From contig NZ_ABCK01000013.1 of NCBI RefSeq assembly GCF_000170755.1, positions 62,001-126,000 of the forward strand: a stretch of DNA of 64,000 bases. The letters are read 5' to 3'. The number at the start of each line of letters is the position of its first letter. Positions within the stretch are counted from its first letter, which is position 1. Below the pieces are notes generated by a model that had not been told where the DNA came from, did no database searches, and saw nothing but the letters and a program-made list of their open reading frames with translations. The DNA is from Lentisphaera araneosa HTCC2155. Lineage in GTDB: Bacteria; Verrucomicrobiota; Lentisphaeria; Lentisphaerales; Lentisphaeraceae. Both the position numbers and the translations under genes were made by a program. Positions 1-20,329 of the stretch are shown piece by piece.

Positions 1-1902
1 CACATTGCCGAAGGTGGCATGAAGCGCATTTATAAAGTTTTTGATAATAAACTTAAGCGTCATGTGGCGCTGGCTCGACTTCAAAATAATATGCCTCGCG
101 CAGCGCACGATTCATTTATACGGGAAGCTCGTTTAACGGCTTTGCTTGAACACCCGGGGATTATTTCTGTCTATAATATTGGTATCGACGGCGAAGATAT
201 GCCTTTTTTTACCATGGAACTCAAAGTGGGTAAAAACTTAAATGAGATTGTTAGTGATTCATCAGGTACTTCACTTAATCATTTATTAGAGTCTTTTGTA
301 CGTGTTTGTGATGCTATTTCATATGCGCATTCAAAAAATGTTTTACACCTCGATATCAAACCCGATAATATCCAAATGGGTCAGTTTGGTGAAGTGAAAG
401 TCTGCGATTGGGGATTAGGAAAGATTATTGGTGAGGAGGATGGCGCGGAATTTGATCAGCTCTTATTTAATCCAGATTTACTCAATAACATGACTTTGAG
501 CGGTGAGATAAAGGGTACGCCTGGTTATATGGCACCTGAACAAATAAGAGGAGAGGACAAAACACAACAAACTGACATTTTTTCATTGGGCTGTGTGCTT
601 TATTATATTTTGTGTGGGAAGCCTGCCTTTGCAGGAGGCGTCCAAGATATGCTAGCCAGAACTCTTGTGGGAGATTTTCTCGAGCCTTCTCTACGCAGTG
701 ATTTATGGTTGGTTCCAGAAAGTCTAAATGCAGTCGTTAATAAGGCGATGTCATCGGAAATTGATGGACGTTATAACTCGGTTGAAGAACTAAAAAATGA
801 AGTGCACAATTATTTGGCAGGACGCTCCACTCATGCGGAAAAAGCGGGGCCTTTAAAAGAACTGAAGTTATTTTGGAAAAGGAACAAGACTTTATGTACA
901 TTGACTTCCTTGTTCGTTGTTATCTTAATTACTGGCGCAATCGTTTTTACTTTTCAACTGCAGCAGAAAAATACTGAGCTCAAAAAGGAAAGTGAGCGTG
1001 CCGAGCAGAGTCGGCTAGCCGCCGAAAAAGAAAAGGATCTAGCTCAAGCCGCACTCAAGAGAACTGAGAATGAACGCAGTTTGGTTAAGGCCTTGGTAGA
1101 TAAGCGTAGCATTGATGTGGTGAAGGTTTACAACTTTACAGATCGAATGGTTTTCCATAATCCAAAATTGTATTTAAATCAGGCGCAGGGGCTCTTGGAG
1201 AAAATTGAACCCCTAGACAGCGAGTATGCCTGGGCAACTATGCAGTTAGGCTATGTACATTTTTTAAAGCAGCAATTTCGTGAAGCCAAAGCCTTGTTTG
1301 AAATAAGTGATAATGACCCAGAACTCCACGCACTAGCTTTGCGTTACACTCAAACTAGTCAGCCGGGACAACTTCTCGAAGTTTCAGTTTTACAGAATTT
1401 GCTGGATGACTTATTAGAAAATGAATATCGCTTGGCGGATGTCTTGAAAATAGTCCTTTATGACTCGACTCAAAGGGAAGATGCTGAGGAACGAGCTAGT
1501 TTGGCAAAGTTTCTTTTACAAAAGATTAATCTCGCATGGAATCAGCCAAGTATGATCTATGATGAGAAGGAGAAATCTCTAAAGCTTTCAGGTCAAGGTC
1601 TTGTTCGATTAGCAGTAGAAAGTAAACAACTCCATCAAACCGGGCCTTCGCCTGATCGACGCATATTTGTGACTGGTGGCTTAAGATTTCAAACATTAGA
1701 CTTAAGTGAAAGTTCTTTTAAACACTTAGAGTTGCTAGAAGGTTTGAAATTGAAAGAATTGAATATCTGTCAAAGTGAAGTGCAAGATTTGAGCGCTTTG
1801 GAAAACTTTGATAAGTTAGAAATTTTACGTATTTCTAAGGGGGCTTTTAATCAGGAACAGCTTGCACTTATTCCTGATTATATTGAAGTGTTTGAGCAGT
1901 GA
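1..1902 (+). CDS. Membrane Ser/Thr protein kinase with C-terminal leucine-rich-like domain (5' end outside window)
   Basis: Hanks-type kinase; the reading frame is open from base 1, so the true start lies upstream and the ATG at 19 is inside the glycine-rich loop. Counting from that Met, the catalytic loop is HLDIKPDN (D112, K114, N117), the metal-binding motif is DWG (D130) and MAPEQ closes the activation segment. A membrane segment at about 292-313 follows, then a charged coiled coil, a TPR-like stretch and a short leucine-rich-like tail (LDLSESSF, ELNICQSEVQDL). The kinase is probably cytoplasmic with the C-terminal half outside the membrane. The glycine loop reads GGMK, and the position of the usual VAxK lysine is Ala (VALA). 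Closely resembles the kinases at 12717 and 18008, both paired with ECF sigma genes, so a sigma gene probably lies just upstream of the window. Confidence 0.92.
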   Translation, partial: HIAEGGMKRIYKVFDNKLKRHVALARLQNNMPRAAHDSFIREARLTALLEHPGIISVYNIGIDGEDMPFFTMELKVGKNLNEIVSDSSGTSLNHLLESFVRVCDAISYAHSKNVLHLDIKPDNIQMGQFGEVKVCDWGLGKIIGEEDGAEFDQLLFNPDLLNNMTLSGEIKGTPGYMAPEQIRGEDKTQQTDIFSLGCVLYYILCGKPAFAGGVQDMLARTLVGDFLEPSLRSDLWLVPESLNAVVNKAMSSEIDGRYNSVEELKNEVHNYLAGRSTHAEKAGPLKELKLFWKRNKTLCTLTSLFVVILITGAIVFTFQLQQKNTELKKESERAEQSRLAAEKEKDLAQAALKRTENERSLVKALVDKRSIDVVKVYNFTDRMVFHNPKLYLNQAQGLLEKIEPLDSEYAWATMQLGYVHFLKQQFREAKALFEISDNDPELHALALRYTQTSQPGQLLEVSVLQNLLDDLLENEYRLADVLKIVLYDSTQREDAEERASLAKFLLQKINLAWNQPSMIYDEKEKSLKLSGQGLVRLAVESKQLHQTGPSPDRRIFVTGGLRFQTLDLSESSFKHLELLEGLKLKELNICQSEVQDLSALENFDKLEILRISKGAFNQEQLALIPDYIEVFEQ

Positions 1903-1905
1903 AAT

Positions 1906-3282
1906 TTATTTATCCCACCAAACTTCTTCAAGAGTTGGAAAGATGCAGTTTTTAAGTTCTTTCTCCCACTTTTTCCATTCCTCAAACATACCTTTAGCGA
2001 GCTCGGGTTTTTTGTTTTTAAGATCTTGCTGTTCACCTGGATCTTTGGAGAGGTCGTAGAGTTGATAGCTGTCACCGCGGCGGCCATTATCCAGAAGGAT
2101 TTTATAATTTCCCTGACGTAAACTGAAACCTTGGGTCGTAAGCTTTCTCCAAAAGAGTTTATCGTGTGGATTAGAGCTTTTTTGCCCCGTTAAATATGGG
2201 ATAATGTTGACTCCATCAAGAGGACGTTTTGGGTGTGGTTTTAGTTTGTTTAAGGCAGTGATGGTGGCCAGTATGTCGAGTGAACTCATTGGCTTTTTAT
2301 AAATTTGTCCAGAAGGGATGGTACCTTTCCATTGAACCGCAAAGGGAACACGTGTGCCACCTTCGTGAAGTGAGCCTTTACCTTTTGAAAAAGGGCCATT
2401 ATCCGTAAAAGGCATGGGGCCTTTTAAGGGCCCACCATTATCTGAGAGGAAAAAGACCAAAGTATCTTCCTCAATCTTGTGTTTTTTGAGTCTTGCCATG
2501 ACGCGACCGACGCCATCGTCCACGGCACTCACCATAGCGGCATAGGTACGACGCTTAGAATCTTTTATGTGGGTGAAACGTTTCAAGTATTTTTCAGAAG
2601 CTTGAAGAGGGGTATGGGGTGCATTATAAGATAAATAGAGCATAAAAGGTTTTTTCTCACTTGCTTTTTTATCGATAAAATCGACTGCGGCATCAGTGAG
2701 TATGTCTGTTAAGTAACCCTCAGAAACCTGTATGCGTTCACGATCTCTGATGAGGTGAGTACGGTACCAATCCCAAATGCGTTTGACCTCGCTAAGGTCT
2801 TTGAGATTATATTTGGCAGGAAAGTAATCATGGCCTCCACTTAAGAAGCCAAAAAAATGATCAAAGCCTCGGTTTAAAGGGTGATGGATTGGGTGAGTTC
2901 CCATATGCCATTTACCAATGATAGAGCTAGAATAGCCCACTTCTTTGAGTACCTCTGCAATGTTTTTTTCTTCTAGAGGAAGTCCAGCGATTGGGTTTTC
3001 TGGATTGACTGTGGGGTTGGTCGTGAAACCAAAGCGGTCTTGGTAACGCCCAGTTAGTAAACCAGCACGGCTGGGCCCGCAGACAGGATATGAAACGTGG
3101 GCATCAATACAGTTAACACCATTTTGGGCAATCGAATCTAAGTGAGGTGTGGGAATATCTTTACAGCCATTAAAGCCAACATCTTGATAACCTTGGTCAT
3201 CAGTTAAGATAATGATGAGGTTGGGGCCGGCAATAATACTATTCATAAGAATAAGGTATAAGAAAATAAAAGTTTTATTCAT
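1906..3282 (-). CDS. Secreted sulfatase (type I, formylglycine-dependent)
   Basis: 458 aa with an N-terminal hydrophobic segment that looks like a signal peptide (about residues 1-18). Early metal ligands lie in LTDDQGYQDVG (D28, D29). The sulfatase signature CGPSRAGLLTGRY follows, with Cys68 the residue expected to be oxidised to formylglycine. GKWHMG and SDNGG supply the other active-site groups. The family hydrolyses sulfate esters; in this phylum the substrates are usually algal or animal sulfated polysaccharides, but the substrate here cannot be read from sequence. It converges with the kinase gene (stop codons 3 bases apart) and is divergent from the prepilin-like gene at 3517. Full length for the family. 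Confidence 0.95.
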   Translation of the reverse strand: MNKTFIFLYLILMNSIIAGPNLIIILTDDQGYQDVGFNGCKDIPTPHLDSIAQNGVNCIDAHVSYPVCGPSRAGLLTGRYQDRFGFTTNPTVNPENPIAGLPLEEKNIAEVLKEVGYSSSIIGKWHMGTHPIHHPLNRGFDHFFGFLSGGHDYFPAKYNLKDLSEVKRIWDWYRTHLIRDRERIQVSEGYLTDILTDAAVDFIDKKASEKKPFMLYLSYNAPHTPLQASEKYLKRFTHIKDSKRRTYAAMVSAVDDGVGRVMARLKKHKIEEDTLVFFLSDNGGPLKGPMPFTDNGPFSKGKGSLHEGGTRVPFAVQWKGTIPSGQIYKKPMSSLDILATITALNKLKPHPKRPLDGVNIIPYLTGQKSSNPHDKLFWRKLTTQGFSLRQGNYKILLDNGRRGDSYQLYDLSKDPGEQQDLKNKKPELAKGMFEEWKKWEKELKNCIFPTLEEVWWDK

Positions 3283-3516
3283 GATTTCATCCAGTCATAT
3301 GAGTTTAATTTATAAGTCATTAATCATAAAACAGACTTGCTTAGCAATAGTGAAACACTTTAGCAAAAAAAAGTGAATTTTTACTTTGCTCAGAAAGAAA
3401 TTTAATTTTTTTTTAAAGATTTGTTAAGCTCCAGTCTTTTGGTTCTGATTCCATAATTAAATACACAACGCTTGATATGGCGTCTGAAATAGATTAAAAT
3501 TAAATCAGGTTGGCTT

Positions 3517-4401
3517 ATGGAAAAAATTGAAATTAAAAAAGTTACTCTCGTCGAGATTCTAGTGGTAGTTGCGGTGATCGCAATTTTAGCCTCTCTGCTT
3601 TTACCTGCTTTGAAGAAAGCACGTGAAACGGCAAGAATCGCCGTATGTGTAAGCAATCAGAAGCAGATCGGTATAGCCATGTATAATTACACTGGAGATA
3701 ATGATGGTTACCTCATTTATTCTAGCTGGGTAGTTAAACCCGATGGCAGTGATTATGGTGGTCTAGGAATTGGTTGGGATGATTTACTTAATCCTTACCT
3801 CGGAGGTAATTTAAATTCTTGGGATGATAAGTTGCATTACTTAAATCAAAAAGATGACGAGCGAGCTATCCCTGCATTCATTTGTCCTTCTGATCGTTGG
3901 GGTACAAGAAGTGCCGGTTCGGCTGCTCAGAGTTACGCAGCCAATCAAAGGGTGCTTGGCACGACCAATAATAACTGGGATAAAGCTATAGTCTATCGTT
4001 ATGAAGCCAGTGGTGATGTTCAAAACGCCGTAGAAGGCCAGGCAAAAATAACTGATATTGATGGTCCGGCGGATTGCTTTGCAATAACGGATGCTCCTAA
4101 CAACCGAAATAATAATTGTCATCAAGGCAGTACACATGGACGTGCAGAACTAAGGCACCTCTGGAGAGATAATGGTGCTTTGCAGGCTCAAATCAATATT
4201 CCCTGGTATGGTGTAGATGATCAAACCGGAGGGGCTACTTATGACGATAAAGAAAACTTAGGTGCCTTAGAATTACATTTAGGGAAGCTTAATTATTTAT
4301 TTGTTGATGGCCATGTACAAACCATGAATCCTTATTCAACAATTGGTAGTGGAAACCAACAAAACCCTAGGGGTATCTGGTCCTACGATCCCAACGACTA
4401 A
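3517..4401 (+). CDS. DUF1559 prepilin-like (pseudopilin) surface protein
   Basis: 294 aa. The N-terminus has the prepilin core [20 protein letters not shown] followed by a basic stretch and the CVSNQKQIG region typical of DUF1559 proteins of Planctomycetes and Lentisphaerae. The C-terminal [12 protein letters not shown] is the usual H-x9-DG closing motif. Members are thought to be processed by prepilin peptidase and assembled at the envelope; their exact function is unknown. The residues before TLVE are KKV rather than the usual K-G-F, so the normal cleavage glycine is missing. Followed 56 bases later by the GH16 gene on the same strand, so the two may be co-transcribed. Confidence 0.9.
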
Positions 4402-4457
4402 ATTTTATTCATTTACTTAAAGAAAATCAATCAAATATTATATTAATGGAGAAAAAC

Positions 4458-5756
4458 ATGAAGAAACTTCTTGTTTCAGGCATGCTTGCGCTCGTATCCG
4501 CAAGTTCAATAAGTGCTCAAACTATCACTCAATACGAAGGTTATGACCTCGTCTGGAATGACGAATTCAATCAAGATGGTGCACTCAATCCAAAAGATTG
4601 GACACATGAAGAAGGCTTTAAGCGCAATGAGGAATTGCAGTGGTATCAGGCTGATAATGCCTTTTGCGAAGATGGCAAACTGGTTATTGAAGGGCGCAAA
4701 GAAACGCGTCCCAACCCAACTTTTAAGGCTGGAAGTAATAGCTGGCGCGAGAGTCGCAAAAATATAGACTACACATCGGCATGTGTAACGACTCAAGACC
4801 GCAAAAGCTGGCTCTATGGTCGTTTCGAAGTACGTGCTAAGATAAAAACAGAAGAAGGACTCTGGCCTGCCATTTGGTTTTTGGGTACAGAGGGCGAATG
4901 GCCAAGCAATGGTGAGATTGACCTCTTGGAGTATTATCATGGCAGTATTTTAGCCAATGCCTGCTGGGGTACAAAAAACCGCTGGGCGGCAAAATGGGAT
5001 GAAAGTAAACGACCTATGTCAGAATTTGGTGGAGCAGATTGGGATAATGAATTTCATTACTGGAGAATGGATTGGGATCAGCACAGTATAAAACTTTATA
5101 TGGATGGACGTTTACTCAATGAAATTGACGTTAATAACACCAATAATGCTACTACTAAATGGGGGCCTAAAAATCCTTTTCGCCAGCCTCAGTACTTATT
5201 GCTTAACCTTGCCTTAGGCGGAAATAGAGGTGGTGATGTGAGTAAGACTACTTTCCCTTCACGTTACGAAATTGATTATGTTCGTGTTTACCAGAAGAAT
5301 GCTGCAGGTTTAGCAAAAGCGCAAAAAGAAAAAGACTTAAAAAAGAAAAAAGCTTTAGCAGCTTTAAAAGAAATCCCTAAAGTTAAGTCAGCTCAATCTT
5401 ATATTCTTGTTGGCAAAGCATGGGATGCTCAGAAAAAAGGTGATCATGCTACTGCAATTGCCTACAGTAATAAGTGTGTAGACATGTACCTCAAAAGAGC
5501 GAAACAAATTCAGTCTCAACTTTCATCTTTACCGAAAGGCTCCCGTAAAGAAGTCAACAAATACGCTATCTTGAATGATGTGGGTGTTAGTCTCTTTATC
5601 AAAGCAACGACTTTGGAGGAAGTGGGAGATAAAGCCGGAGCTAAAAAAGTCTATGCGACTTTATTCAATGATGTGAAGTACGCTCAATGCTGGGATAATA
5701 AAGGTTGGTTTTGGCAGCCTGCTAAAGTCGCAGAGAAAAAAATACAAGAGCTTTAA
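4458..5756 (+). CDS. Secreted GH16 beta-glucanase with extra C-terminal helical domain
   Basis: Start chosen at 4458 because GGAG at 4448-4451 sits 6 bases before it and it gives a clean signal peptide ending ...SASSISA-Q; an in-frame ATG at 4446 overlaps that ribosome site. Residues of about 25-290 form a GH16 domain with the catalytic motif GEIDLLEYY (E153, D155, E158), which in this family cleaves beta-1,3/1,4-glucans such as laminarin; related GH16 enzymes act on agar, carrageenan or porphyran. Residues of about 291-432 are a Lys-rich linker and a TPR-like helical domain ending in GWFWQPAKVAEKK. DNA encoding the last part of that domain recurs as a fragment at 16659-16997. Probably in one unit with the prepilin-like gene upstream. 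Confidence 0.93.
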   Translation: MKKLLVSGMLALVSASSISAQTITQYEGYDLVWNDEFNQDGALNPKDWTHEEGFKRNEELQWYQADNAFCEDGKLVIEGRKETRPNPTFKAGSNSWRESRKNIDYTSACVTTQDRKSWLYGRFEVRAKIKTEEGLWPAIWFLGTEGEWPSNGEIDLLEYYHGSILANACWGTKNRWAAKWDESKRPMSEFGGADWDNEFHYWRMDWDQHSIKLYMDGRLLNEIDVNNTNNATTKWGPKNPFRQPQYLLLNLALGGNRGGDVSKTTFPSRYEIDYVRVYQKNAAGLAKAQKEKDLKKKKALAALKEIPKVKSAQSYILVGKAWDAQKKGDHATAIAYSNKCVDMYLKRAKQIQSQLSSLPKGSRKEVNKYAILNDVGVSLFIKATTLEEVGDKAGAKKVYATLFNDVKYAQCWDNKGWFWQPAKVAEKKIQEL

Positions 5757-8194: not shown

Positions 8195-9457
8195 TTAGAA
8201 TAACTCTTTAATAGGACCCGTAGAATCGGCGAATTTATTAATCTGAATATTGTTTTTTTGCATAAGAGTTAACCAAAGATTAGCGAGCGGCGTATCTTTT
8301 TCGGGGAGTACTAAATGACGACCATGTACAACATTATTCATGCCCCCACCCGATAGAATCATGGGAAGATTTTTCAACATATGTGCGGTACGGATATTGC
8401 TACCCCAAGCAATAGTACAGTTATCATATAATGAACTACCATCGAATTCCTTTTTTGCTTTCAAGTTATCAATCAAGAGTGCTAATAACTCAGTGTTTTT
8501 GCGATCGCGTAGTTGGCTTGCAGCAGTTCGTTCTTTAGATACGGTATAATGACTAATAGAATGAGGGTCATAGTATATGCCTAAGCCTTTTAGCAGTGAT
8601 TTGGTTGGTTGGCAATAAGATATCACCGGGCTTTGATGCGTTTGTAAAGCTAGCGCCATAAGCTCGTAAGTGACTTTGATTTCAGTATAACCATCTTTGA
8701 TCACAGGTAGTTTAAAGTTTATTCTAGGTTTAGGGGTGTCGGCCCATAGAGCCTCACGTGAGAGGCTATGTTCAATATCTCGAATTGAGTGAAAGTATTC
8801 ATCGAGTTTTTCACGATCATTATGGGCTAATTTTTTATTGAGACCTTTAAAGTCTTTGTAAATTCCATCCAAGATACTTTGCTTATTTTTTAATCTTAGC
8901 ACTCGCTCTTCAGAACTCTCTCGATCCTGACCAAAAAGCTTTGCATATAGTTCTAAAGGACCCATTATACCTGTGATGGGCTTGCCTTCTATATTCCATG
9001 AAAGTGATCGGCCTGGTCCATGTCCATCTCTGTCGCCACCTGATAAGGCTAAATGGCTGTAACGCATTTTTTTGCCGAGTTGCATTCCCGCAAGTACATC
9101 ACAGGAAATTGAATTGTGAAAAAGCTTGCCAGGTGTACGGTGCACATTGGCACAAGTGAGTAGATTAGTACTTCCCTGATGGGCTGATGTTGCGCCTGCG
9201 TTGGTCAAATTTGTAATGTAGCTAAGGTCATTTTTATGCCTAGTGAGTGGTTTCATTCCCTCGGGGAGAGTGTGCCATGAGCCTTCTTTACTTGGAAAAA
9301 AACTTTCTTTGGTGAAACCAAAACCGACGCTACAAAAAATCATTTTCTTGGCTGGATCAGGAGTCTTTTCATTGGCGAAAGTTTCTAACAAGGGTAGCGC
9401 TAAGCAGGCTCCAGTCGCTTTTAAGAATGATCTTCTTGATATTTGATTTATAATCAT
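8195..9457 (-). CDS. DUF1552 exported protein
   Basis: 420 aa with a Tat-like signal (SRRSFLKATGACLALPLLE), then the DUF1552 domain (FCSVGFGF, HQGSTNLLTC, SYCQPTKSL, AWGSNI). The function is unknown, but in Planctomycetes and Lentisphaerae these proteins are almost always encoded next to PSD1/DUF1592 haem proteins. That is the case here: the upstream partner ends 6 bases before this start. Likely periplasmic, exported folded, and part of the same complex as its partner. It is the last gene of the minus-strand run beginning with the sigma factor at 15387. Confidence 0.92.
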   Translation of the reverse strand: MIINQISRRSFLKATGACLALPLLETFANEKTPDPAKKMIFCSVGFGFTKESFFPSKEGSWHTLPEGMKPLTRHKNDLSYITNLTNAGATSAHQGSTNLLTCANVHRTPGKLFHNSISCDVLAGMQLGKKMRYSHLALSGGDRDGHGPGRSLSWNIEGKPITGIMGPLELYAKLFGQDRESSEERVLRLKNKQSILDGIYKDFKGLNKKLAHNDREKLDEYFHSIRDIEHSLSREALWADTPKPRINFKLPVIKDGYTEIKVTYELMALALQTHQSPVISYCQPTKSLLKGLGIYYDPHSISHYTVSKERTAASQLRDRKNTELLALLIDNLKAKKEFDGSSLYDNCTIAWGSNIRTAHMLKNLPMILSGGGMNNVVHGRHLVLPEKDTPLANLWLTLMQKNNIQINKFADSTGPIKELF

Positions 9458-9463
9458 AATACT

Positions 9464-11923
9464 TTACTTAGTTTGAAAGGTTTTAGATTGTGTAAAAAGA
9501 TGGATTAGGCTTCGCAAGCGGTATTTATCTTTGTCCCATTTTTCTACTAAATCCTCGATCTCTTCTCTATCAGAAAAACTGATGCTCCGTCCGAGGCCAT
9601 AGGAATAAAGTCCCTCAGCAATGGATTCTGCGAGTCTAGATTTATACTGCATGAGACTCAACTTAAATGAATCAGTATCGTGAAATTGAGTTCCATTAGG
9701 TAAATGCCCTCTGGAACTGAGCTCAGTATGTGAGGACTCAGAAAGCTTTTCTACACTTCTCCAGCGACCGATTGCATCAAAGCTTTCCAGGCCAAAGCCA
9801 ATGGGATCAATCTTAGAATGACAAGATGAACACTGAGCTTTAACCTGATGCATTTCGATCATCTTTCTTATTGGAATGGGATCATCCGATGCTTCCTTTA
9901 ATTCTGGTACATTAGGCGGTGGGGGAGGGGGTGGATTATTTAAAAACTGATCCATAATCATGGAGCCTCTTATTATTGGTGAGGTTCTATCTCCCGTAGA
10001 AGTCATGGTTAAAAAAGCTGCAGTAGTCAATATTCCACCTCGCGTCGAGTTGCTTTTTAGCATAACTTTATGGAAACCATGCTCTTTTTTTGGAGCCATC
10101 TTGTAATGATGGGCTAAGAGTTGATCGATGATCACATAATCAGCATTAATAAGCTGATAAAGAGGCTCGTTATACTGTAGCATATACTTAAAAATCTCAA
10201 TGGGTTCCTGACGAGCGGATAGCTTTAAGCCTCGGTCATATTCATTATATAAAGTGGTATTCACACTCAGATCATCGAGGCGTTTTAAATGGAGCCACTG
10301 AGCAAAAAAACCTTCAGATAAGGAAGCTGCCCTCGGGTCATTGAGCATTCTTTCAACTTGTTGATTAAGAATATCTTTATTGAGAATATTTGAGCTCTCC
10401 GCAAGTTGATATAGTTCTTCATCAGGGGGTGAACTCCAAATTAAATTGGCTAAGCGAATGACTAATTCATGGGCGGATAATTTTTCTCCTCCAAGTCCCT
10501 CATATTCACTGAAATAGAGGAAGTTTGGAGAAGTCAATATCATAGCGAGTGGCTCCTCTATAGCTTTCCACCAATGTAATTTATTTTCTAATTGCTGTTT
10601 ATAATGTTTCAAAACATGTTCTATGAACTCGGGGTTAGGAGTCTTCCTACGAAAGGCTTGGAATGCAAACTCCGTGAAAATATGGCGCATACGTTCATCA
10701 GTTAAGTCATGCGTCTTACGTATTTCTGGGTAGCCCTCCTCATAAATTAACTTCTCAAGAAGTGTCAAACCATCATAAAAGGGCCCTTCAAATTCAAGCT
10801 TATCAAGCCAAATACTCGCAGACTCACCATGCGGATCAAGACGCTTTAAATACTGTGATGGGTTTTTAGTGGAATTCCCCTTCTCACTCAGTATAAAATA
10901 GAGATACTTGTCTGCAAGTGGTTTATAAATGAAACTATATTTTGTTGGATTTTGTAGATCACCATTGACTTTGAAGGAGCGCAGCGGAGTGCGATCATCG
11001 CGGATATCTAGATAACGTCGTGCCTCGGGAGGGGTATTATGAAGTCCGGCATTCATCGTGACTTTGTAAGTTCCCTTGGGGTCATATCGCTTGCCGATGG
11101 ACGCCCTAAAAAGTTTTGTAAATGGTTTTCCATCAAGGGGAAAGTAATGGCGTGATTCACTCTGGGGTAAAGTCCAAAAGTAGTCGTGCTTTTTTTTACG
11201 TTTCAAAAAATCTCTGACAAAATTGGCAGAGCCCGCTTCATCAGTAAATCCAGCTTCTTTCCACTTGCCTTTTTGAATGAGAGTCCATTTTTCTAGATCT
11301 TTGCTAAAGTTGTGCAAAATCTTTTTCCTATGGGATTCACCTTCAAAAATTCGATTCTCAAATTTGCGACGTTTTATCATATTTTGAGCGATTAGCTTTT
11401 TACCCAGGGTAAAATATTTCTCAAAGTGATAAGCAGAAAAATACTGATTGGCTCCCATGGTGTCATAGGGAGCGGAAGGATCATCTGGAGGAAGGTCATT
11501 TCTATCTACGTTTAAGCCAAGTAATTGCTCGATAGCATTGGCGTATTCGCGGCGATTAAGACGTCGCATAGTGATCTTACGGCCCTGATCAGCAAGCTTT
11601 CTACGCGCTCCTCGTAATCCCTCGGTTAAGTTTCTTAAAACTTCGGCGAGTTCTTCTTTGCTAGGCTGTTTCTTCTTTTTAGGAGGCATCTCAGCTACAT
11701 TGAGAACATCTAGGATATCTTGCCACTCTTGTGCCGTTTCATTCGTTTCAATGTTAAAATGTATTTGATCTAGACGTACATCACCTTTTTGTTTTGTTGC
11801 TCCATGACAGGAAATACAATAAGTTTCAAGAAAGGGCTTAAGGTGATCTTTCGATAATAGCGACTTTTCTGCAAGAACTTGAATAGAAGTAATTAGTGTG
11901 AGAATTATAATTATATATTTCAT
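9464..11923 (-). CDS. PSD1-type c-haem protein (DUF1587/1592/1588/1585)
   Basis: 819 aa from the ATG at 11923, which follows the stop of the preceding gene by two bases; longer starts would overlap that gene and break the signal peptide (MKYIIIILTLITSIQVLA). An N-terminal planctomycete cytochrome c box CISCH (C36, C39, H40) is the haem site. The middle and end carry the DUF1587, DUF1592, DUF1588 and DUF1585 modules, including a second CxxCH (CSSCH) before KIDPIGFGLESFDAIGRWR and a poly-Pro stretch (PPPPPPPNVPEL). Role unknown; presumed periplasmic redox or polymer-processing enzyme acting with DUF1552. Tight spacing on both sides indicates one operon. Confidence 0.93.
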   Translation of the reverse strand: MKYIIIILTLITSIQVLAEKSLLSKDHLKPFLETYCISCHGATKQKGDVRLDQIHFNIETNETAQEWQDILDVLNVAEMPPKKKKQPSKEELAEVLRNLTEGLRGARRKLADQGRKITMRRLNRREYANAIEQLLGLNVDRNDLPPDDPSAPYDTMGANQYFSAYHFEKYFTLGKKLIAQNMIKRRKFENRIFEGESHRKKILHNFSKDLEKWTLIQKGKWKEAGFTDEAGSANFVRDFLKRKKKHDYFWTLPQSESRHYFPLDGKPFTKLFRASIGKRYDPKGTYKVTMNAGLHNTPPEARRYLDIRDDRTPLRSFKVNGDLQNPTKYSFIYKPLADKYLYFILSEKGNSTKNPSQYLKRLDPHGESASIWLDKLEFEGPFYDGLTLLEKLIYEEGYPEIRKTHDLTDERMRHIFTEFAFQAFRRKTPNPEFIEHVLKHYKQQLENKLHWWKAIEEPLAMILTSPNFLYFSEYEGLGGEKLSAHELVIRLANLIWSSPPDEELYQLAESSNILNKDILNQQVERMLNDPRAASLSEGFFAQWLHLKRLDDLSVNTTLYNEYDRGLKLSARQEPIEIFKYMLQYNEPLYQLINADYVIIDQLLAHHYKMAPKKEHGFHKVMLKSNSTRGGILTTAAFLTMTSTGDRTSPIIRGSMIMDQFLNNPPPPPPPNVPELKEASDDPIPIRKMIEMHQVKAQCSSCHSKIDPIGFGLESFDAIGRWRSVEKLSESSHTELSSRGHLPNGTQFHDTDSFKLSLMQYKSRLAESIAEGLYSYGLGRSISFSDREEIEDLVEKWDKDKYRLRSLIHLFTQSKTFQTK

Positions 11924-11925
11924 TA

Positions 11926-12603
11926 TTAAGGTAGGCCTATATCTCCACCGCTTTCCCATTCGCCTATGGTCGTTTCAGTCCACTCATTTTGCCATTTGTT
12001 CCAGCGGGCATACCTTGTGAACCAGGCCGGACTAAAACTCATACTATGATGCGAGCGCGAAGACACATGAAGGTCTGCCCATAATAAATTACTGGCAGCT
12101 AAATGACGTGCTTCAAGTCTGCTCCTCTTCCAATAAGGAACACCGTTAAAAGCAGTTTCAGCGCCCAATACAGTTTCACTAGCATGATCCATTGCCTGGA
12201 TAGTAACATTTATCGTAGGTTTACTATAATCGTGCTCAAAATAATCGGAGTCATTTGTATGATTAGAAGCGCGTTGAGTTTCAGGGCAACGAAATAAGGA
12301 TTTATTGTTAATATATAGATCTAGATGGACATTATGATCTGTCCATACAGTTGTTTTTAGCTGACTATTATTATAATACGCAGCAGCTTCCCAACCATTA
12401 TTATCGGGTATAGAATTGCCGTTGTTGTCCCCCCAGTACATGCCCCATGCATAACCGATTTGTCTCATTTGTGAGAGGCAAGCAGCCTGAGTCGCTTTTT
12501 TTCTTGCCCGTCGTAAGTTGGGTACTAATAAACTAAAAAGAATACTGATGACGGCCATAACCACCAGCACTTCTATCAAAGTAAAGCCTTTTTTTTCTCT
12601 CAT
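11926..12603 (-). CDS. Prepilin-like protein (type II secretion/DUF1559-like)
   Basis: 225 aa from the ATG at 12603, which has GGAG seven bases upstream; a TTG at 12615 would put that ribosome site inside the gene. A canonical class III leader, KKGFTLIEVLVVMAVISILF, is cut after Gly in this family. The C-terminal half has the NLLWADLHVSSRSHH region, corresponding to the H-x9-DG part of such proteins. Probably assembled in the envelope as a pseudopilin. It lies 113 bases after the kinase stop codon on the same strand and directly ahead of the PSD1/DUF1552 pair, so a sigma-kinase-pilin-PSD1-DUF1552 transcription unit is plausible. Confidence 0.9.
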   Translation of the reverse strand: MREKKGFTLIEVLVVMAVISILFSLLVPNLRRARKKATQAACLSQMRQIGYAWGMYWGDNNGNSIPDNNGWEAAAYYNNSQLKTTVWTDHNVHLDLYINNKSLFRCPETQRASNHTNDSDYFEHDYSKPTINVTIQAMDHASETVLGAETAFNGVPYWKRSRLEARHLAASNLLWADLHVSSRSHHSMSFSPAWFTRYARWNKWQNEWTETTIGEWESGGDIGLP

Positions 12604-12716
12604 GAGTATCTCCAAGTGAATATTTAATGTAAACTCTCATCTTATATTTGATGCTAGTTTACCCTTACTTACAGAATTCAGTCAGAACCCTTAACAAGTA
12701 AGTGATGAAAAAGTCG

Positions 12717-14786
12717 CTATTTATATTCGACTTGTATTTGAGAGGGGATATCCTTGAGGTTCATGTCATCGCGATCTAAAATGATTTTTCTAAGTTGAGC
12801 CATTTTTCTAATGGGTGTTAGATCGGTGATTTTTGTGCGACATATATTTAATTCTTGAATCTCACTTCCAAGTAAAAAGTTTAAATCAGTAAATGAACTA
12901 TCGCTGATATCAAGTTGTTTGATTTCGCCAGGCCGAAAAATAAAAATCCTTTCTTTTGGTTTTTTCCCAGTCAAGAAAAATTCATTCTTTTTGAAGGCTA
13001 ACCTAGAGAATCCTTGGCCGGAAATCTTCAAACTCCCCTTGCTATGATCGTAAATAAACTCTTGTTTATCCCAATGTGGATTGATGACTTTGAGCATATA
13101 CTCTACCAATTTAAAGTGCTCTGTAGGTTTCGATCGAAGTTCTGAGTCATACTTGAGCATTTTTAAGGCATCGCTAATGCGGTACTTACTGACTAATAAC
13201 TCATCCCAATAGTCCATAAGTTGTTTAGGTGTCAAGAGAGCTGATTTCTTCTGAAGGCGTGCATACTTTTGACTCAGTTTTAAAAGAGGAGGATCATTTG
13301 AGCTTATTTCAAAAAACTGGCAGGCCTGAGAGAAATCTTGTCTCAGGCTGAAAATATAAGCTAATTGCATGCTTGCCCATGCATATGCAGGATCACCTTT
13401 TTGAATTTTATTCAGTAAACCTTCAGCTTTCTGCAAGGCTTTGAGTGGTTCACTAAAAACCAATGTGTCACTAAGGAAGTAAATCTGTTTAATATCATTG
13501 GCTTGACCTTGAATCATCGATCTAACTAAATTCTTCTCATTTATCATTCTATTGAGTGCCGATTGAGCTTCGAGTTGACGATGAAGCGCTAAGTTCATAC
13601 TATGATCAGCTCTATTGCGCTCTTCTATCAAGATTGTATTTTTGGATTTTAGTTGATAATTAAAATATATACCGATGCTCACCAAGCAAAGCATAAAAAG
13701 CAAGACTAGAAAACACGTGATACAGTTGCGTTTATAAAATAATTTCAATTGTTTTAGAAAGCTAGCATTCTCCGCTATTGTAGCACGACCGTCCATATAT
13801 TTAGTTAATTCATTTTTGAATTCAGAAACTGATCGATAACGCTTCTCCGGATTCGTTTGCATGGCCTCTAATACAACTGCGTTTAAGCTTTTTGGGACAG
13901 ATATAAGCCCCTGTGAACGAGCGGATGGTGGCTCGAAATCACCACTCATGGTCGCGTTTAAAATATCATTCGTATCACCTTCATAGGCACATTTACCAGT
14001 TAGGATAGTATAAAAAATAGCTCCTAGTGAGTAAATGTCAGTCTGTTTAGTTTTCTCCAGGTTTTTTGAAACTTGTTCGGGGGCCATATATCCCGGGGTG
14101 CCTTTAACTTCGCCCGAAAGAGTTATATTATTAAGTAAGTCAGGATTGAATAAGAGTTGATCAAACTCACTGCAATCATCGTTGTCTATAACTTTGCCTA
14201 AGCCCCAGTCGCAGACCTTTACTTCACCGTACTTGCCGACTTGTATATTCTCAGGTTTTAAGTCTAGATGTAAAACATCTTTTGAATGAGCGTATTCAAT
14301 GGCGTCGCAAACTTTCAGGAAAATTTCGAGGAGAAAATCTAAATTCTTCTTGGAAAAGACTCCTGTATGAGTGTGGATTTGCTGAATGGTTTTCGCCAGG
14401 TTATCTCCCTTTTTTAACTCCATCGTAAAAAAAGGCGTATTGTCTTGGGCAATCCCTATGGAGTGAACACTAATAATATTTGGATGCTGAAGTAAGCCGG
14501 TTAAGCGTGCTTCTCGGATGAAAGAATCGTGGGTTGTTTCAGGTGCATTAGTGTGTAAGCGGGCCATGGCTACGTTGCGCTGAAGCTGTGTATCAAAGAC
14601 TTTGAAAATCCTCTTCATCCCGCCTTCTGCAATTTTTTCTTCATTGCTGTACTGAGAAACGATTTTTTTAAGTGAGTCACAAACGGGACGTACGCTCATC
14701 TTTTCACCTTCGAATCCTAGCTCTATTTCATCGTAAAGATCTTTTAGAGCATAGATTACTTTTACTTGTGGCTCACTGTCCATCAC
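12717..14786 (-). CDS. Membrane Ser/Thr protein kinase paired with ECF sigma factor
   Basis: 689 aa and intact. An acidic N-terminal extension (about 1-48) precedes a kinase domain: loop GGMK (K58), VAMA in place of VAxK (A75), helix-C Glu in REARL (E92), catalytic HLDLKPEN (D175, K177, N180), DWG (D193), MAPEQ. Membrane segment at about 355-377, then coiled coil, TPR-like helices and a leucine-rich-like tail (LDISDSSF, ELNICRTKITDL). The last part is inferred to be extracytoplasmic and to sense a ligand. The start codon lies inside the sigma gene (14-base overlap), implying coupled translation. The neighbourhood resembles ECF sigma-kinase pairs in which the kinase phosphorylates the sigma factor (EcfP/PknT in Vibrio); that function is inferred here. 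Confidence 0.95.
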   Translation of the reverse strand: MMDSEPQVKVIYALKDLYDEIELGFEGEKMSVRPVCDSLKKIVSQYSNEEKIAEGGMKRIFKVFDTQLQRNVAMARLHTNAPETTHDSFIREARLTGLLQHPNIISVHSIGIAQDNTPFFTMELKKGDNLAKTIQQIHTHTGVFSKKNLDFLLEIFLKVCDAIEYAHSKDVLHLDLKPENIQVGKYGEVKVCDWGLGKVIDNDDCSEFDQLLFNPDLLNNITLSGEVKGTPGYMAPEQVSKNLEKTKQTDIYSLGAIFYTILTGKCAYEGDTNDILNATMSGDFEPPSARSQGLISVPKSLNAVVLEAMQTNPEKRYRSVSEFKNELTKYMDGRATIAENASFLKQLKLFYKRNCITCFLVLLFMLCLVSIGIYFNYQLKSKNTILIEERNRADHSMNLALHRQLEAQSALNRMINEKNLVRSMIQGQANDIKQIYFLSDTLVFSEPLKALQKAEGLLNKIQKGDPAYAWASMQLAYIFSLRQDFSQACQFFEISSNDPPLLKLSQKYARLQKKSALLTPKQLMDYWDELLVSKYRISDALKMLKYDSELRSKPTEHFKLVEYMLKVINPHWDKQEFIYDHSKGSLKISGQGFSRLAFKKNEFFLTGKKPKERIFIFRPGEIKQLDISDSSFTDLNFLLGSEIQELNICRTKITDLTPIRKMAQLRKIILDRDDMNLKDIPSQIQVEYK

Positions 14787-15387
14787 TCTCGAGTTCCCGT
14801 ACTAAACGACGCATTTCATCGATGAACTTACTCTTCACTCTCGAGACTAATACATAAACCGACTCTTTTTTTAAATCTAAACGTTCGGCAATTTCGACGG
14901 CAGTTACTCCTTGCTGGCTCAAAAGAAAAGCCTCGATGGCCATACCTGAAAATAATTCTTTGATATTATCAAAGGCGATCGAAGTCACGTAGGCTTGCCA
15001 CTCATCTTCGATTAATTGTTCCAATTCTCCAATTTGATAATTCTTGATCTGAAGTTCCAGCTCTTGAGTATTGCGTATTTCTTCCTTTTGGAGATTTTGG
15101 CGCGTTTGCTTATCGAGATAATTGATTACCGCATTTTTTGTTAAACGGCCTAGCCAACTACGGAATTTTCCGCGCGAACTATCGTAGCTTTTTAAGCCCT
15201 CCCACAACTTCATGAGCACAAGCTGTACCATATCATCAAAATCATTTGCGTTGATATTCATTTTATGTAAGAGGTGATAAATAAAGTTTTTGTATAGACT
15301 AATAAACTCTTCCCAGGCGGCTTCATCTTGTGGGTCTCTAGCTCGTTGAATTAAAGTTTGCCGTGTTAGGTAAGATTTCTTAGTCAT
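14773..15387 (-). CDS. ECF-type RNA polymerase sigma factor (kinase-linked)
   Basis: 204 aa. Region 2 runs from about residue 20 to 95 (AWEEFISLYKNFIYHLL, DDMVQLVLMKLWEGL, KFRSWLGRLTKNAVINYL) and region 4 from about 145 to 195, with a helix-turn-helix (GVTAVEIAERLDLKKESVYVLVSRVKSKF). GGGGAA lies upstream of the start. No anti-sigma gene is adjacent; instead the kinase overlaps its 3' end, so regulation by phosphorylation is likely (inference). The N-terminal phrase YLTRQTL is shared with the sigma genes at 15769 and 17404, showing a paralogous family. Confidence 0.93.
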   Translation of the reverse strand: MTKKSYLTRQTLIQRARDPQDEAAWEEFISLYKNFIYHLLHKMNINANDFDDMVQLVLMKLWEGLKSYDSSRGKFRSWLGRLTKNAVINYLDKQTRQNLQKEEIRNTQELELQIKNYQIGELEQLIEDEWQAYVTSIAFDNIKELFSGMAIEAFLLSQQGVTAVEIAERLDLKKESVYVLVSRVKSKFIDEMRRLVRELESDGQ

Positions 15388-17403: not shown

Positions 17404-18004
17404 ATGAGCGAAGATAACTACCTAACGCGACAGACTCTTCTCATTCGTGCCCAATCAGGGAATGATCAGGATGCTTGGGAAGAATTTATTAAATTCTACA
17501 AAGCTTTTATTTACCACATTCTGAAGAAGATGAATGTGAAGAGTAAGGACGACATGGATGACTTGGTTCAGGACGTACTTCTCAAGCTCTGGAAAGGGCT
17601 TAAGTCTTATGATAAATCAAAAAGTAAGTTCAGAACTTGGCTCAGCTTAATTACTAAAAACACCGTGATCAGTTTTTTTCGCAAAAAGTCAGTGCGCCCC
17701 GATTTAGTGGGTGTTGAAGCAGTCGAATTGGAGAATAAATTTACCACTTGCTCAGAATCGGAACTCGAGGAAATTTTTGAAAATGAATGGCGTGCTTATC
17801 TTTGTTCGATAGCCTATGAAAACATTCAAAAACTTTTCACCGGAAATTCTAGAGGTGTTTAGTCTTAGTCAAGAAGGTATGAGTTCAGCAGAAATTGCAG
17901 GAAAATTGGGGCTGACAAAAGAATCAGTTTATGTCTTGTCTTCTCGGGTGCGTTCAAAATTTGCAAGTGAAGTCAAAAAGTTGATCAATAACTTGGAGTT
18001 TTAA
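17404..18004 (+). pseudogene. ECF sigma factor gene with a one-base frameshift
   Basis: The first 140 or so codons give region 2 (YLTRQTLLIRAQ, DDLVQDVLLKLWKGL, FRTWLSLITKNTVISFF) as in the sigma factor at 14773. At the T-run 17834-17837 the frame goes wrong and stops at 17862; dropping one T restores PEILEVFSLSQEGMSSAEIAGKLGLTKESVYVLSSRVRSKF (region 4, in the frame ending at 18004). One extra T is therefore the likely defect. The kinase gene begins immediately after. Together with the IS-truncated kinase, this marks a decaying sigma-kinase module, although a sequencing error cannot be excluded for the T-run. Confidence 0.85.
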
Positions 18005-18007
18005 TTG

Positions 18008-18940
18008 ATGGAAAACGATGAGACCTTAGAACTTACCTATAAATTTAATGATATTTATGATGAGGTTCTTGAGGATTCAAATGACTCAAGCAGCGCCTTC
18101 ACTCGCCCTTTGTATGATGAGTTATCGAATATTAATACGCAATACACGCAGTTTGAAAAGCTTGCTCAAGGGGGCATGAAGTCAATCTATAAGGTGTTTG
18201 ATTCTAAATTGAATCGCCATGTGGCTTATGCAAAGCTACGTCCTCAGACACCAGAAGAAGTTCATGACCCCTTTATGCGGGAAGCGCGCCTAACAGCTTT
18301 GTTAGAACATCCCAATATTATTAGTGTTTACGATATTGGGGTAAGTGATGATGATGCGCCTTATTTTACGATGGAATTAAAGGTGGGAGATAACCTTACA
18401 GAATATATGAGAAACTCCCCCGATTGTCATATCCCTGGCCAGGTCGAATTTCAGAATTTACTAGAGAGCTTTATCAAAGTTTGTGATGCAATTTCATATG
18501 CACATTCGAAAAATGTTCTGCATTTGGATTTAAAGCCTGAGAATATTCAACTGGGTCAATTTGGTGAAGTGTTAGTCTGTGACTGGGGTTTAGGAAAAAT
18601 TATTGGAGATAAAGATATTGAGTACGATCAGATGCTCTTTAACCCTGATTTATTAAACAATGTGACTCTAACAGGCAAAGTAGTGGGGACGCCAGGTTTT
18701 ATGGCCCCTGAGCAGATAAACTTAAAACATGAGAAAAGTTTTCAAACCGATATTTACGCTCTTGGTTCGATCCTGTATAAAATTATTACTGGCCGTGATG
18801 CTTTTGAGAGCGAGAAATTAGATGAAATTTTACAGGAAACACTACGGGGAGAGGTTTGTCCACCAAAAGGTTTAGATTTGAATTGGCAGGTGCCGATAAG
18901 CTTGAGTGCCGTAGCCTTAAAGGCAATGTCCTTGGGATAG
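18008..18940 (+). pseudogene. Membrane Ser/Thr kinase gene truncated by an IS256 element
   Basis: Start ATG 18008, three bases after the sigma frame ends, with GGAG in the sigma 3' end. The kinase domain is complete through the catalytic and activation motifs: GGMK (K58), VAYA (A75), MREARL, HLDLKPEN, CDWGLGK, MAPEQ. It breaks at KAMS, where its relatives continue toward the membrane segment; the last two codons and stop come from the IS end at 18936. The membrane segment and sensor half are absent and are not found on the far side of the element. If expressed, it would be a soluble kinase domain without its sensor. Confidence 0.88.
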
Positions 18941-20329
18941 AGTCCCGTTGTTTCTGTAAATTGGTGTTGACCAATTTTAGTTAAACAGATAGATAAACTC
19001 TTTTTGTAGCTATCCAGGTTTCATCTAATTCCATAAGAATAGCGGATGCTAATCTAAGAAGTGAAGCTTCATTTGGGAATATAGATACGGTTCTAGTTCG
19101 CCTGAGAATTTCTCGATTCTGTCTTTCATTCATATTGGTCGTTCTCAGTTTTGTCCAACAAGAACGCTCGAGATCGAATACAGAAAAGCCTTCAGGAAGT
19201 GCAGATTCCATCCATTCAGATAAATGTGAAGCCTTTTCTTCATACTTTAAGCAAGTAAGCTTTAAAAGCCTTTCAGCCTCAAGCTTTGAAGGTGCATTAA
19301 AGATATCTCTAATATCTTGAGCTACTTCTGAGCGCATAGCTTTCTTAGGGACATAAGCACCAGCATTTTGCTGTAAGTGAAATTGACATCTCTGCCATGG
19401 GATAGAACCAAATACAGTCTTTAACGCTGCTTTTAGGCCCGAATGACTATCACTGGTAATCATCTTGAGGCCATGGAGTCCTCGAGCATTCAATGACAGA
19501 AAAAAGTTCCTCCAATGAACTTCCGCTTCACTTAAAGAAACACTTGTTCCGAGGACTGAACGTTTTCCTGATTCATCTATTCCATAGGCAATAAGTAAAG
19601 CACAATCTCGAACAGTCTTATCTACTCTAACCTTCTCGTATCTCGCATCCACCAAAAGATAAGAATATTTACCTAAAGGACGGTTGCGCCACTTTTCTAA
19701 ACTCTCATCTAGCTCAGTTACCACACGGGATACCTGTGATTTACTTACAGATAGACCACATATTTTCTCTAAAAGTTTAGTCACCTTTCTAGTCGATGTC
19801 CCCTGAATATAACTCTCTGCCATAGCTGTCATTAAAGCTCGTTCACTTCGCAAGCCTTTCTCCAAAGAACTTGGATAAAAATCAATTTCACCTCTGACTT
19901 GAGGGATATTAAGCTTCATTGCTCCAAGTCGAGTGTTTACAGTTTTATTTTTATAGCCATTAGCATAACCCAAGCGACTTTCATTACGTTCATATGGATC
20001 AGCTTCAAGAGAATTACTTCTCTCCACTTTCATCGCTTCATTTAATAAAACTCTCATCGCTTCAAGCATTCCGCTTTCGCCGTTTTCTGTAACTTGTTGG
20101 ATCATTTCTAATAAGACGCTACTGTTTTCTTGTGTAGAGTGGTGCATAATAATTCCTTGTGGGTTGTTTTGGTACAACACCACTCTGCATCTTCTTTACC
20201 CCGAGTTACAAACAACTTCCTCAATTTCGCTCCGACGAGAAAGTTCCCATTCTCGCGAAGTCTCGGAAGCTATTCATAACTCTTAAAGTAGAGCAATAGC
20301 AGAATTTACAGAAAATTTGGGACACTACC
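18936..20329 (-). mobile_element. IS256-family insertion sequence, copy 1
   Basis: 1394 bp, ending in imperfect 27-bp inverted repeats (GATAGAGTCCC...CTGTAAATT; about 21 of 27 matches). The copy at 34541 has the same length and ends. The flanking 8 bases differ (gtccttgg on the left, tggatttg on the right), so there is no target duplication here. This indicates recombination or deletion beside the element after insertion. Confidence 0.93.
18981..20147 (-). CDS. IS256-family (Mutator-type) DDE transposase, copy 1
   Basis: 388 aa from the ATG at 20147, preceded by AAGGA; an upstream GTG has no ribosome site. Acidic triad: D167 (LLVDARYEKVR), D233 (MITSDSHSGLK) and E341 (TTNMNERQNRE). Residue 340, before the catalytic Glu, is Asn here but Val in the copy at 34586; hydrophobic residues are usual at that position in the family, so this copy may be impaired (inference). 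No other difference between the two proteins was seen. Confidence 0.95.
   Translation of the reverse strand: MHHSTQENSSVLLEMIQQVTENGESGMLEAMRVLLNEAMKVERSNSLEADPYERNESRLGYANGYKNKTVNTRLGAMKLNIPQVRGEIDFYPSSLEKGLRSERALMTAMAESYIQGTSTRKVTKLLEKICGLSVSKSQVSRVVTELDESLEKWRNRPLGKYSYLLVDARYEKVRVDKTVRDCALLIAYGIDESGKRSVLGTSVSLSEAEVHWRNFFLSLNARGLHGLKMITSDSHSGLKAALKTVFGSIPWQRCQFHLQQNAGAYVPKKAMRSEVAQDIRDIFNAPSKLEAERLLKLTCLKYEEKASHLSEWMESALPEGFSVFDLERSCWTKLRTTNMNERQNREILRRTRTVSIFPNEASLLRLASAILMELDETWIATKRVYLSV

Follow-up and report, generated by a model that had tools for sequence, protein, structure and literature searches.

The WNK kinases of eukaryotes are salt-sensing enzymes. They have been described as the sole ePK family that is functional while lacking K72, and in WNK1 a lysine at position 55 stands in its place (Kannan 2007, PMC1821047). 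A positive charge shifted from position 72 to position 55 was likewise described for the CAK-chloro subfamily (Kannan 2007, PMC1821047). Among bacteria, several pseudokinase families are known (ActPs2, DYD, DLHK, GLW and CP1; PMC12599244), and the 2025 review that presents them uses WNK as an analogy only, with no mention of Lentisphaerae, Planctomycetes or Verrucomicrobia (PMC12599244). Finally, phosphorylation of an ECF sigma factor encoded next to its kinase is known for PknT-EcfP and PknS-EcfK (PMC8999054, PMC13147305). In the open literature, which takes in neither subscription journals nor the supplementary data of the 2025 bacterial STK atlas, we found no description of a WNK-like lysine swap in bacteria, of which the original prediction also knew none; an earlier notice is possible.

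The window analysed here, a stretch of 64,000 nucleotides from Lentisphaera araneosa HTCC2155, contains four Hanks-type Ser/Thr kinase genes with this arrangement, hereafter called K/A kinases. The gene at 12717..14786 on the minus strand encodes a protein of 689 aa from a GTG start, with a Pkinase domain match, and its N-lobe reads AEGGMKRIFKVFDTQLQRNVAMARL. A lysine (K58, codon at 14613..14615) occupies the position of the third G-loop glycine (PKA G55, WNK1 K233) and, 17 residues further on, an alanine (A75, codon at 14562..14564) occupies that of the beta-3 lysine (PKA K72, WNK1 C250), as assigned by sequence and alignment. The helix-C Glu (E92, 14511..14513; WNK1 E268), the catalytic Asp of the HLD motif (D175, 14262..14264) and the metal-binding Asp of the DWG motif (D193, 14208..14210) are invariant in the alignment and, like the two preceding codons, lie on the minus strand. 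The kinase domain (residues ~46-335) is followed by one transmembrane segment (~353-372); beyond it come a coiled coil and TPR-like helices, and the protein closes with a short LRR-like stretch. Directly upstream lies the gene of its partner ECF-type sigma factor (Sigma70_r2; 14773..15387, minus strand), which overlaps the kinase start by 14 nt. On the other side, positions 8195-12615 encode a pilin-like protein, a PSD/cytochrome c multidomain protein and a DUF1552 protein.

The second K/A kinase (18008..18940, plus strand, ATG start) carries the same K58 and A75 and is truncated near residue 311, with an insertion sequence adjoining; domain and ORF analysis places a Mutator-family transposase at 18981..20183 on the minus strand. 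Its sigma factor partner (17404..17862, plus strand) has a frame break near 17850, with the C-terminal part in another frame. The region 17404-20183 is thus a decayed copy of a sigma factor/kinase pair beside a transposase. Two points of the original prediction are to be amended: the 12717-14786 gene lies on the minus strand, and the 18008 protein comes from a decayed gene. The third kinase (1..1902, plus strand, Lys codon at 22-24) is truncated by the left edge of the window, shortly before which lie its start and the partner sigma factor. Within positions 1-5756, the neighbours of this kinase tail are a sulfatase, a GH16 glycoside hydrolase and a pseudopilin-like protein with DUF1559. The N-lobe of the fourth kinase (L026, 62678..64000, minus strand) lies past the window end and, read from the sequence outside it, is also of the K/A type (GAQK...IALA; GAQKKIYQVYDTSCSREIALA).

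The substitution of Lys for the third loop glycine and of Ala for the beta-3 lysine, originally read in three window kinases, is therefore confirmed and extends to the fourth; these kinases are a sample of a rule that holds exactly throughout the genome. The L. araneosa genome (6.02 Mb in 81 contigs) gave 105 Pkinase matches, about 70 of them close relatives of the 12717 kinase. Both lysine positions were read off one common alignment of all genome kinases, rows without an aligned N-lobe being left unscored. At positions 58 and 75, 61 kinases have Lys/Ala, 25 Gly/Lys, 4 Ser/Lys and 3 Ala/Lys, that is 61 K/A kinases and 32 canonical ones (Gly, Ser or Ala in the loop with a beta-3 lysine). No kinase scored in this alignment has both lysines, and a single one, L097 (Arg/Ile), has neither and is degenerate. 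Since the two states exclude each other in this way, the K/A pairing is not a matter of chance. Besides the window copy, two family members are decaying in this genome: L077, in which an internal TAA cuts off the K/A N-lobe, and L097 itself, a pseudokinase that has also lost the HxD Asp.

The pairing is just as exact in other genomes. A scan of GTDB genomes added 23 K/A kinases, all with the same pair, and 63 canonical kinases, with no mixed case. The former come from Lentisphaera marina, Victivallales, other Lentisphaeria, Pontiellaceae/Kiritimatiellales, Akkermansiaceae and strain JB023, the latter from Planctomycetota, Myxococcota, Verrucomicrobia and others. A survey with the DNA pattern G[GA]xK-x6-[DN]-x4-R-x-[VI]AxA, which recovers 52 of the 61 K/A kinases of L. 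araneosa and includes false matches, was positive in 114 of the 388 genomes scanned in the phylum, as against a handful of matches with the reversed control. Three species of the genus Lentisphaera have 52, 44 and 46 copies and the two other genomes of the family 5 and 29; in family f2, 51 of 58 genomes are positive, most with one copy each, and family f30 has several copies per genome. Many genomes in the phylum also yield pattern matches to a conserved non-kinase protein (GAMKC(V/I).STxDxDxxSLVAKA; several of the loci L189-L216). An Akkermansiaceae MAG (SS36427bin_12, G437) contains 25 K/A kinases in 2.7 Mb, apparently a second, separate expansion. In Planctomycetota the pattern occurs in 6 of 294 genomes: five are chance matches and one (G469, L236) has real kinases, in 10 copies. 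A Pirellulaceae MAG (L232) has one K/A kinase, and the remaining sampled Planctomycetota genomes have none; the kinases of these two assemblies could be transfers or belong to mis-binned contigs. Plasmids gave distant kinases only. K/A kinases are thus pervasive in Lentisphaeria, present in Kiritimatiellia and some Verrucomicrobiae, and rare in Planctomycetota.

In the alignment of 83 K/A kinases, which share ~40-60% mutual identity, sixteen positions are invariant (G55, K58, R70, A73, A75, E92, H173, D175, K177, N180, D193, W194, G195, P236, E237 and D250, in the numbering of the 12717 protein). They include the G-loop Gly, the alphaC Glu, the HxD Asp, Lys177, Asn180, the DWG Asp, the APE Glu and the F-helix Asp. 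The K58/A75 pair is found in 83/83, which counts as one historical change and not 83 because these sequences descend from one event, and Lys occurs at position 58 in none of the 94 aligned canonical kinases. The beta-3 lysine that is invariant in Hanks-type (PknB-like) kinases is therefore absent here, and its function has apparently been transferred to K58. As originally proposed, the helix-C Glu, the HLD Asp and the DWG Asp are all kept, and this conservation of catalytic residues supports the view that the proteins are likely active enzymes. The Pkinase domain scores above the curated cut-off in the profile search, and the AlphaFold2 model (pLDDT 90.9, pTM 0.90) places K58 as the first residue of beta-2, A75 inside beta-3 and E92 in helix C. 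In 79/83 K/A kinases Leu stands in place of the HRD Arg, from which it follows that their activation differs from that of RD kinases. Other differences from the close canonical kinases include a residue immediately following the catalytic Asn and the one preceding the DWG Asp; together, these positions suggest a reshaped active site.

Most K/A kinases are encoded beside a sigma factor. In L. araneosa, an ECF sigma factor gene adjoins 49 of 60 K/A kinases and 3 of 32 canonical ones (Fisher P ~9e-12), the other 11 K/A kinases having no detected sigma factor neighbour. The 49 genes lie directly upstream on the same strand (34) or on the opposite strand (15), nearly all within ~350 nt. The pairing also occurs in other lineages (L114, L118, L128, L132, L230, L232). 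At least two acidic residues are kept in region 2.2 of 51 of the 54 partner sigma factors; the phospho-switch motif of the ECF43 type, which combines a non-acidic region 2.2 with a Thr target, does not fit them, so this switch is not directly transferable. One transmembrane segment is predicted in 57 of 61 K/A kinases, ~22 residues past the kinase domain and followed by a tail of ~358 aa. In the model (pLDDT 82.7) this tail is sensor-like, with a coiled coil, TPR-like helices and LRR-like strands, and a fold search with it gave no significant match, only TPR and LRR fragments. Among the sulfatase matches listed, at least 27 of 61 K/A kinases have a sulfatase gene within 8 kb (18.8 expected, P 0.012), a weak enrichment on which we rejected a strong association with sulfatases or PULs.

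The context is different in family f2, which is Victivallaceae to judge from one named locus (L155, Victivallaceae). There, the single K/A kinase (~370-440 aa) comes after clpX and closes a tig-clpP-clpX-kinase cluster; this order holds in 12 of 13 loci (tig being undetected in one of the 12). The Victivallaceae-like clpX-kinase loci are L219-L222, L229, L243-L247, L249 and L250 (and L155, L126). This position after clpX suggests control of ClpXP by the kinase in these bacteria. Other Lentisphaeria (L223-L231, L252-L262) have long K/A kinases of about 1000 aa (range ~800-1170), some with Pfam LRR repeats and some beside a Radical SAM gene.

In our best reading, K/A kinases would be active enzymes, as their sequences suggest, that drive partner sigma factors and local regulons. 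The catalytic lysine would have left beta-3, where Ala now stands, in a single event and taken the place of the third loop glycine. From the start of beta-2, K58 would reach into the site, contact the alpha and beta phosphates of ATP and pair with Glu92 in the manner of K233 in WNK1. The swap would have arisen in a PknB-like branch with the DWG motif, probably in an ancestor within Verrucomicrobiota sensu lato, and then multiplied. Most copies would be receptors that cross the membrane once, their kinase facing the cytoplasm and their coiled-coil/TPR/LRR-like tail lying outside. Because the kinases are co-encoded with an ECF sigma factor, its control by phosphorylation is the likely output, and it would act on genes in the vicinity, frequently those of sulfatase and polysaccharide loci. 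We consider this explanation, taken as a whole, to be probable.

An artefact of alignment or sequence, with another lysine really at beta-3, has a negligible chance: we found nothing in its favour, the stretch from loop to beta-3 is ungapped with a constant 17-residue spacing, the predicted structure agrees, no other conserved N-lobe lysine able to take the catalytic role exists among the 83 aligned K/A kinases, and many independent assemblies repeat the pattern. With the WNK1 sequence (100% identical to PDB 5w7t), K233 and C250 align with K58 and A75 without a gap, which bears out the spacing given in the original prediction. Acquisition of a eukaryotic WNK gene by horizontal transfer is just as hard to credit, and kinship with WNK is rejected: the shared lysine position speaks for it, but the nearest solved relatives are PknB, PknA and StkP, with no WNK in the best 60 matches, and the DWG and HLDLKP motifs are bacterial. 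M. tuberculosis PknB is the best match both in sequence and in structure (Foldseek, 6b2p, TM 0.89 by target). FastTree places the 83 K/A kinases on a single branch (support 98), whose only other members are L130, an intact canonical row, and three broken rows. A maximum-likelihood tree of 71 rows, of which 45 are K/A, unites the latter in one clade (SH-aLRT 88) with the canonical L130 as sister, and WNK1 lies outside all bacterial rows. With the K58 and A75 columns masked, the tree that keeps K/A kinases together lies 19 log units above the free search and the clade is not rejected (p-AU 0.75). A single origin within bacterial PknB-like kinases is the best reading of these trees. Since K/A kinases form one clade of this kind, with no close WNK kinship, the bacterial swap is, by sequence comparison, convergent.

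That these proteins are pseudokinases, whose catalysis ended with the beta-3 lysine and whose domains switch the sigma factor by binding nucleotide or by scaffolding, is unlikely but deserves more weight. Absence of this lysine is the usual criterion for a pseudokinase, bacterial families of this sort exist (PMC12599244) and the HRD Arg is mostly lost; on the other hand, all other catalytic residues are invariant at ~40-60% mutual identity, true decay in the same genome (L097) removes several residues at once, and a lysine has been invariantly gained at the sole loop position known to substitute. The original prediction also raised an ion or osmotic response as an unproven idea. In such a reading, the vacated beta-3 pocket would bind chloride or another anion, and a marine bacterium would use the kinases as sensors of ions or osmolarity. 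The lysine displacement is that of WNK1 and the largest expansion is in a marine host. Only one of the WNK1 residues L369, L371, F283 and L299, which we take to line the halide site, is usually kept in the 83 sequences: the L371 equivalent is Leu in 74/83, whereas L369 is Trp in 83/83 (as in 69/94 canonical kinases), F283 is Val, Ile or Leu and L299 is Phe in 80/83. The genomic context, moreover, is that of ECF sigma factors and, in Victivallaceae-like bacteria, of a tig-clpP-clpX operon, with no link to ion transporters seen. A chloride role is not supported and seems to us very improbable. A bolder version of the active-kinase reading, which we rate as a long shot, would see here a second independent WNK geometry and the main receptor-kinase system of the genus (~60 per genome), in which the relocated lysine makes a pocket for an anion other than chloride or for a metabolite, tuning sigma factors and, in Victivallaceae, ClpXP.

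The bacterial K/A clade is an independent replicate of the WNK change; with its dozens of natural paralogs and its canonical sister (L130), it makes the route by which the most conserved residue of kinases was moved testable. The rule that a kinase without the beta-3 lysine is a pseudokinase would misfile a large bacterial family. A large set of kinase/sigma factor pairs also comes to light here among marine polysaccharide degraders, as does, in Victivallaceae-like bacteria, a kinase gene within the tig-clpP-clpX operon.

Compared with known systems, K/A kinases share with WNK1-4 (K233/C250 in WNK1) the lysine at the third G-loop glycine, the missing beta-3 lysine, the 17-residue spacing and the retained helix-C Glu, HxD Asp and D-x-G Asp. 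They differ from them in descent, in the beta-3 residue (Ala in 83/83 versus the Cys of VAWC in WNK), in motifs (DWG versus DLG, and HLD in most versus HRD) and in setting, being bacterial, membrane-bound and encoded beside ECF sigma factor genes; nor is the halide pocket conserved. PknB/PknD-type bacterial Hanks kinases (M. tuberculosis PknB) have the same fold, motifs and single transmembrane segment before an extracytoplasmic part; they nevertheless keep the canonical beta-3 lysine and a loop Gly or Ser and carry PASTA domains, whereas the sensor region of K/A kinases is different and without PASTA. CAK-chloro likewise has the charge at 55 instead of 72, but as Arg, with Met at 72 and the helix-C Glu changed to Phe, in a family resembling small-molecule kinases. 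In ActPs2, DYD, DLHK, GLW and CP1 the beta-3 lysine is also replaced, but by Arg or bulky residues, or else HRD, DFG or the alphaC Glu is lost (PMC12599244); unlike K/A kinases, none is described with a G-loop lysine in an otherwise intact site. Finally, STK-associated ECF sigma factors (ECF43 EcfP-PknT, EcfK-PknS; ECF59/61/62/217) resemble the present pairs in adjoining a kinase gene and in having no evident anti-sigma factor, and differ in that the partners described here keep an acidic region 2.2 and their kinases carry the lysine swap.
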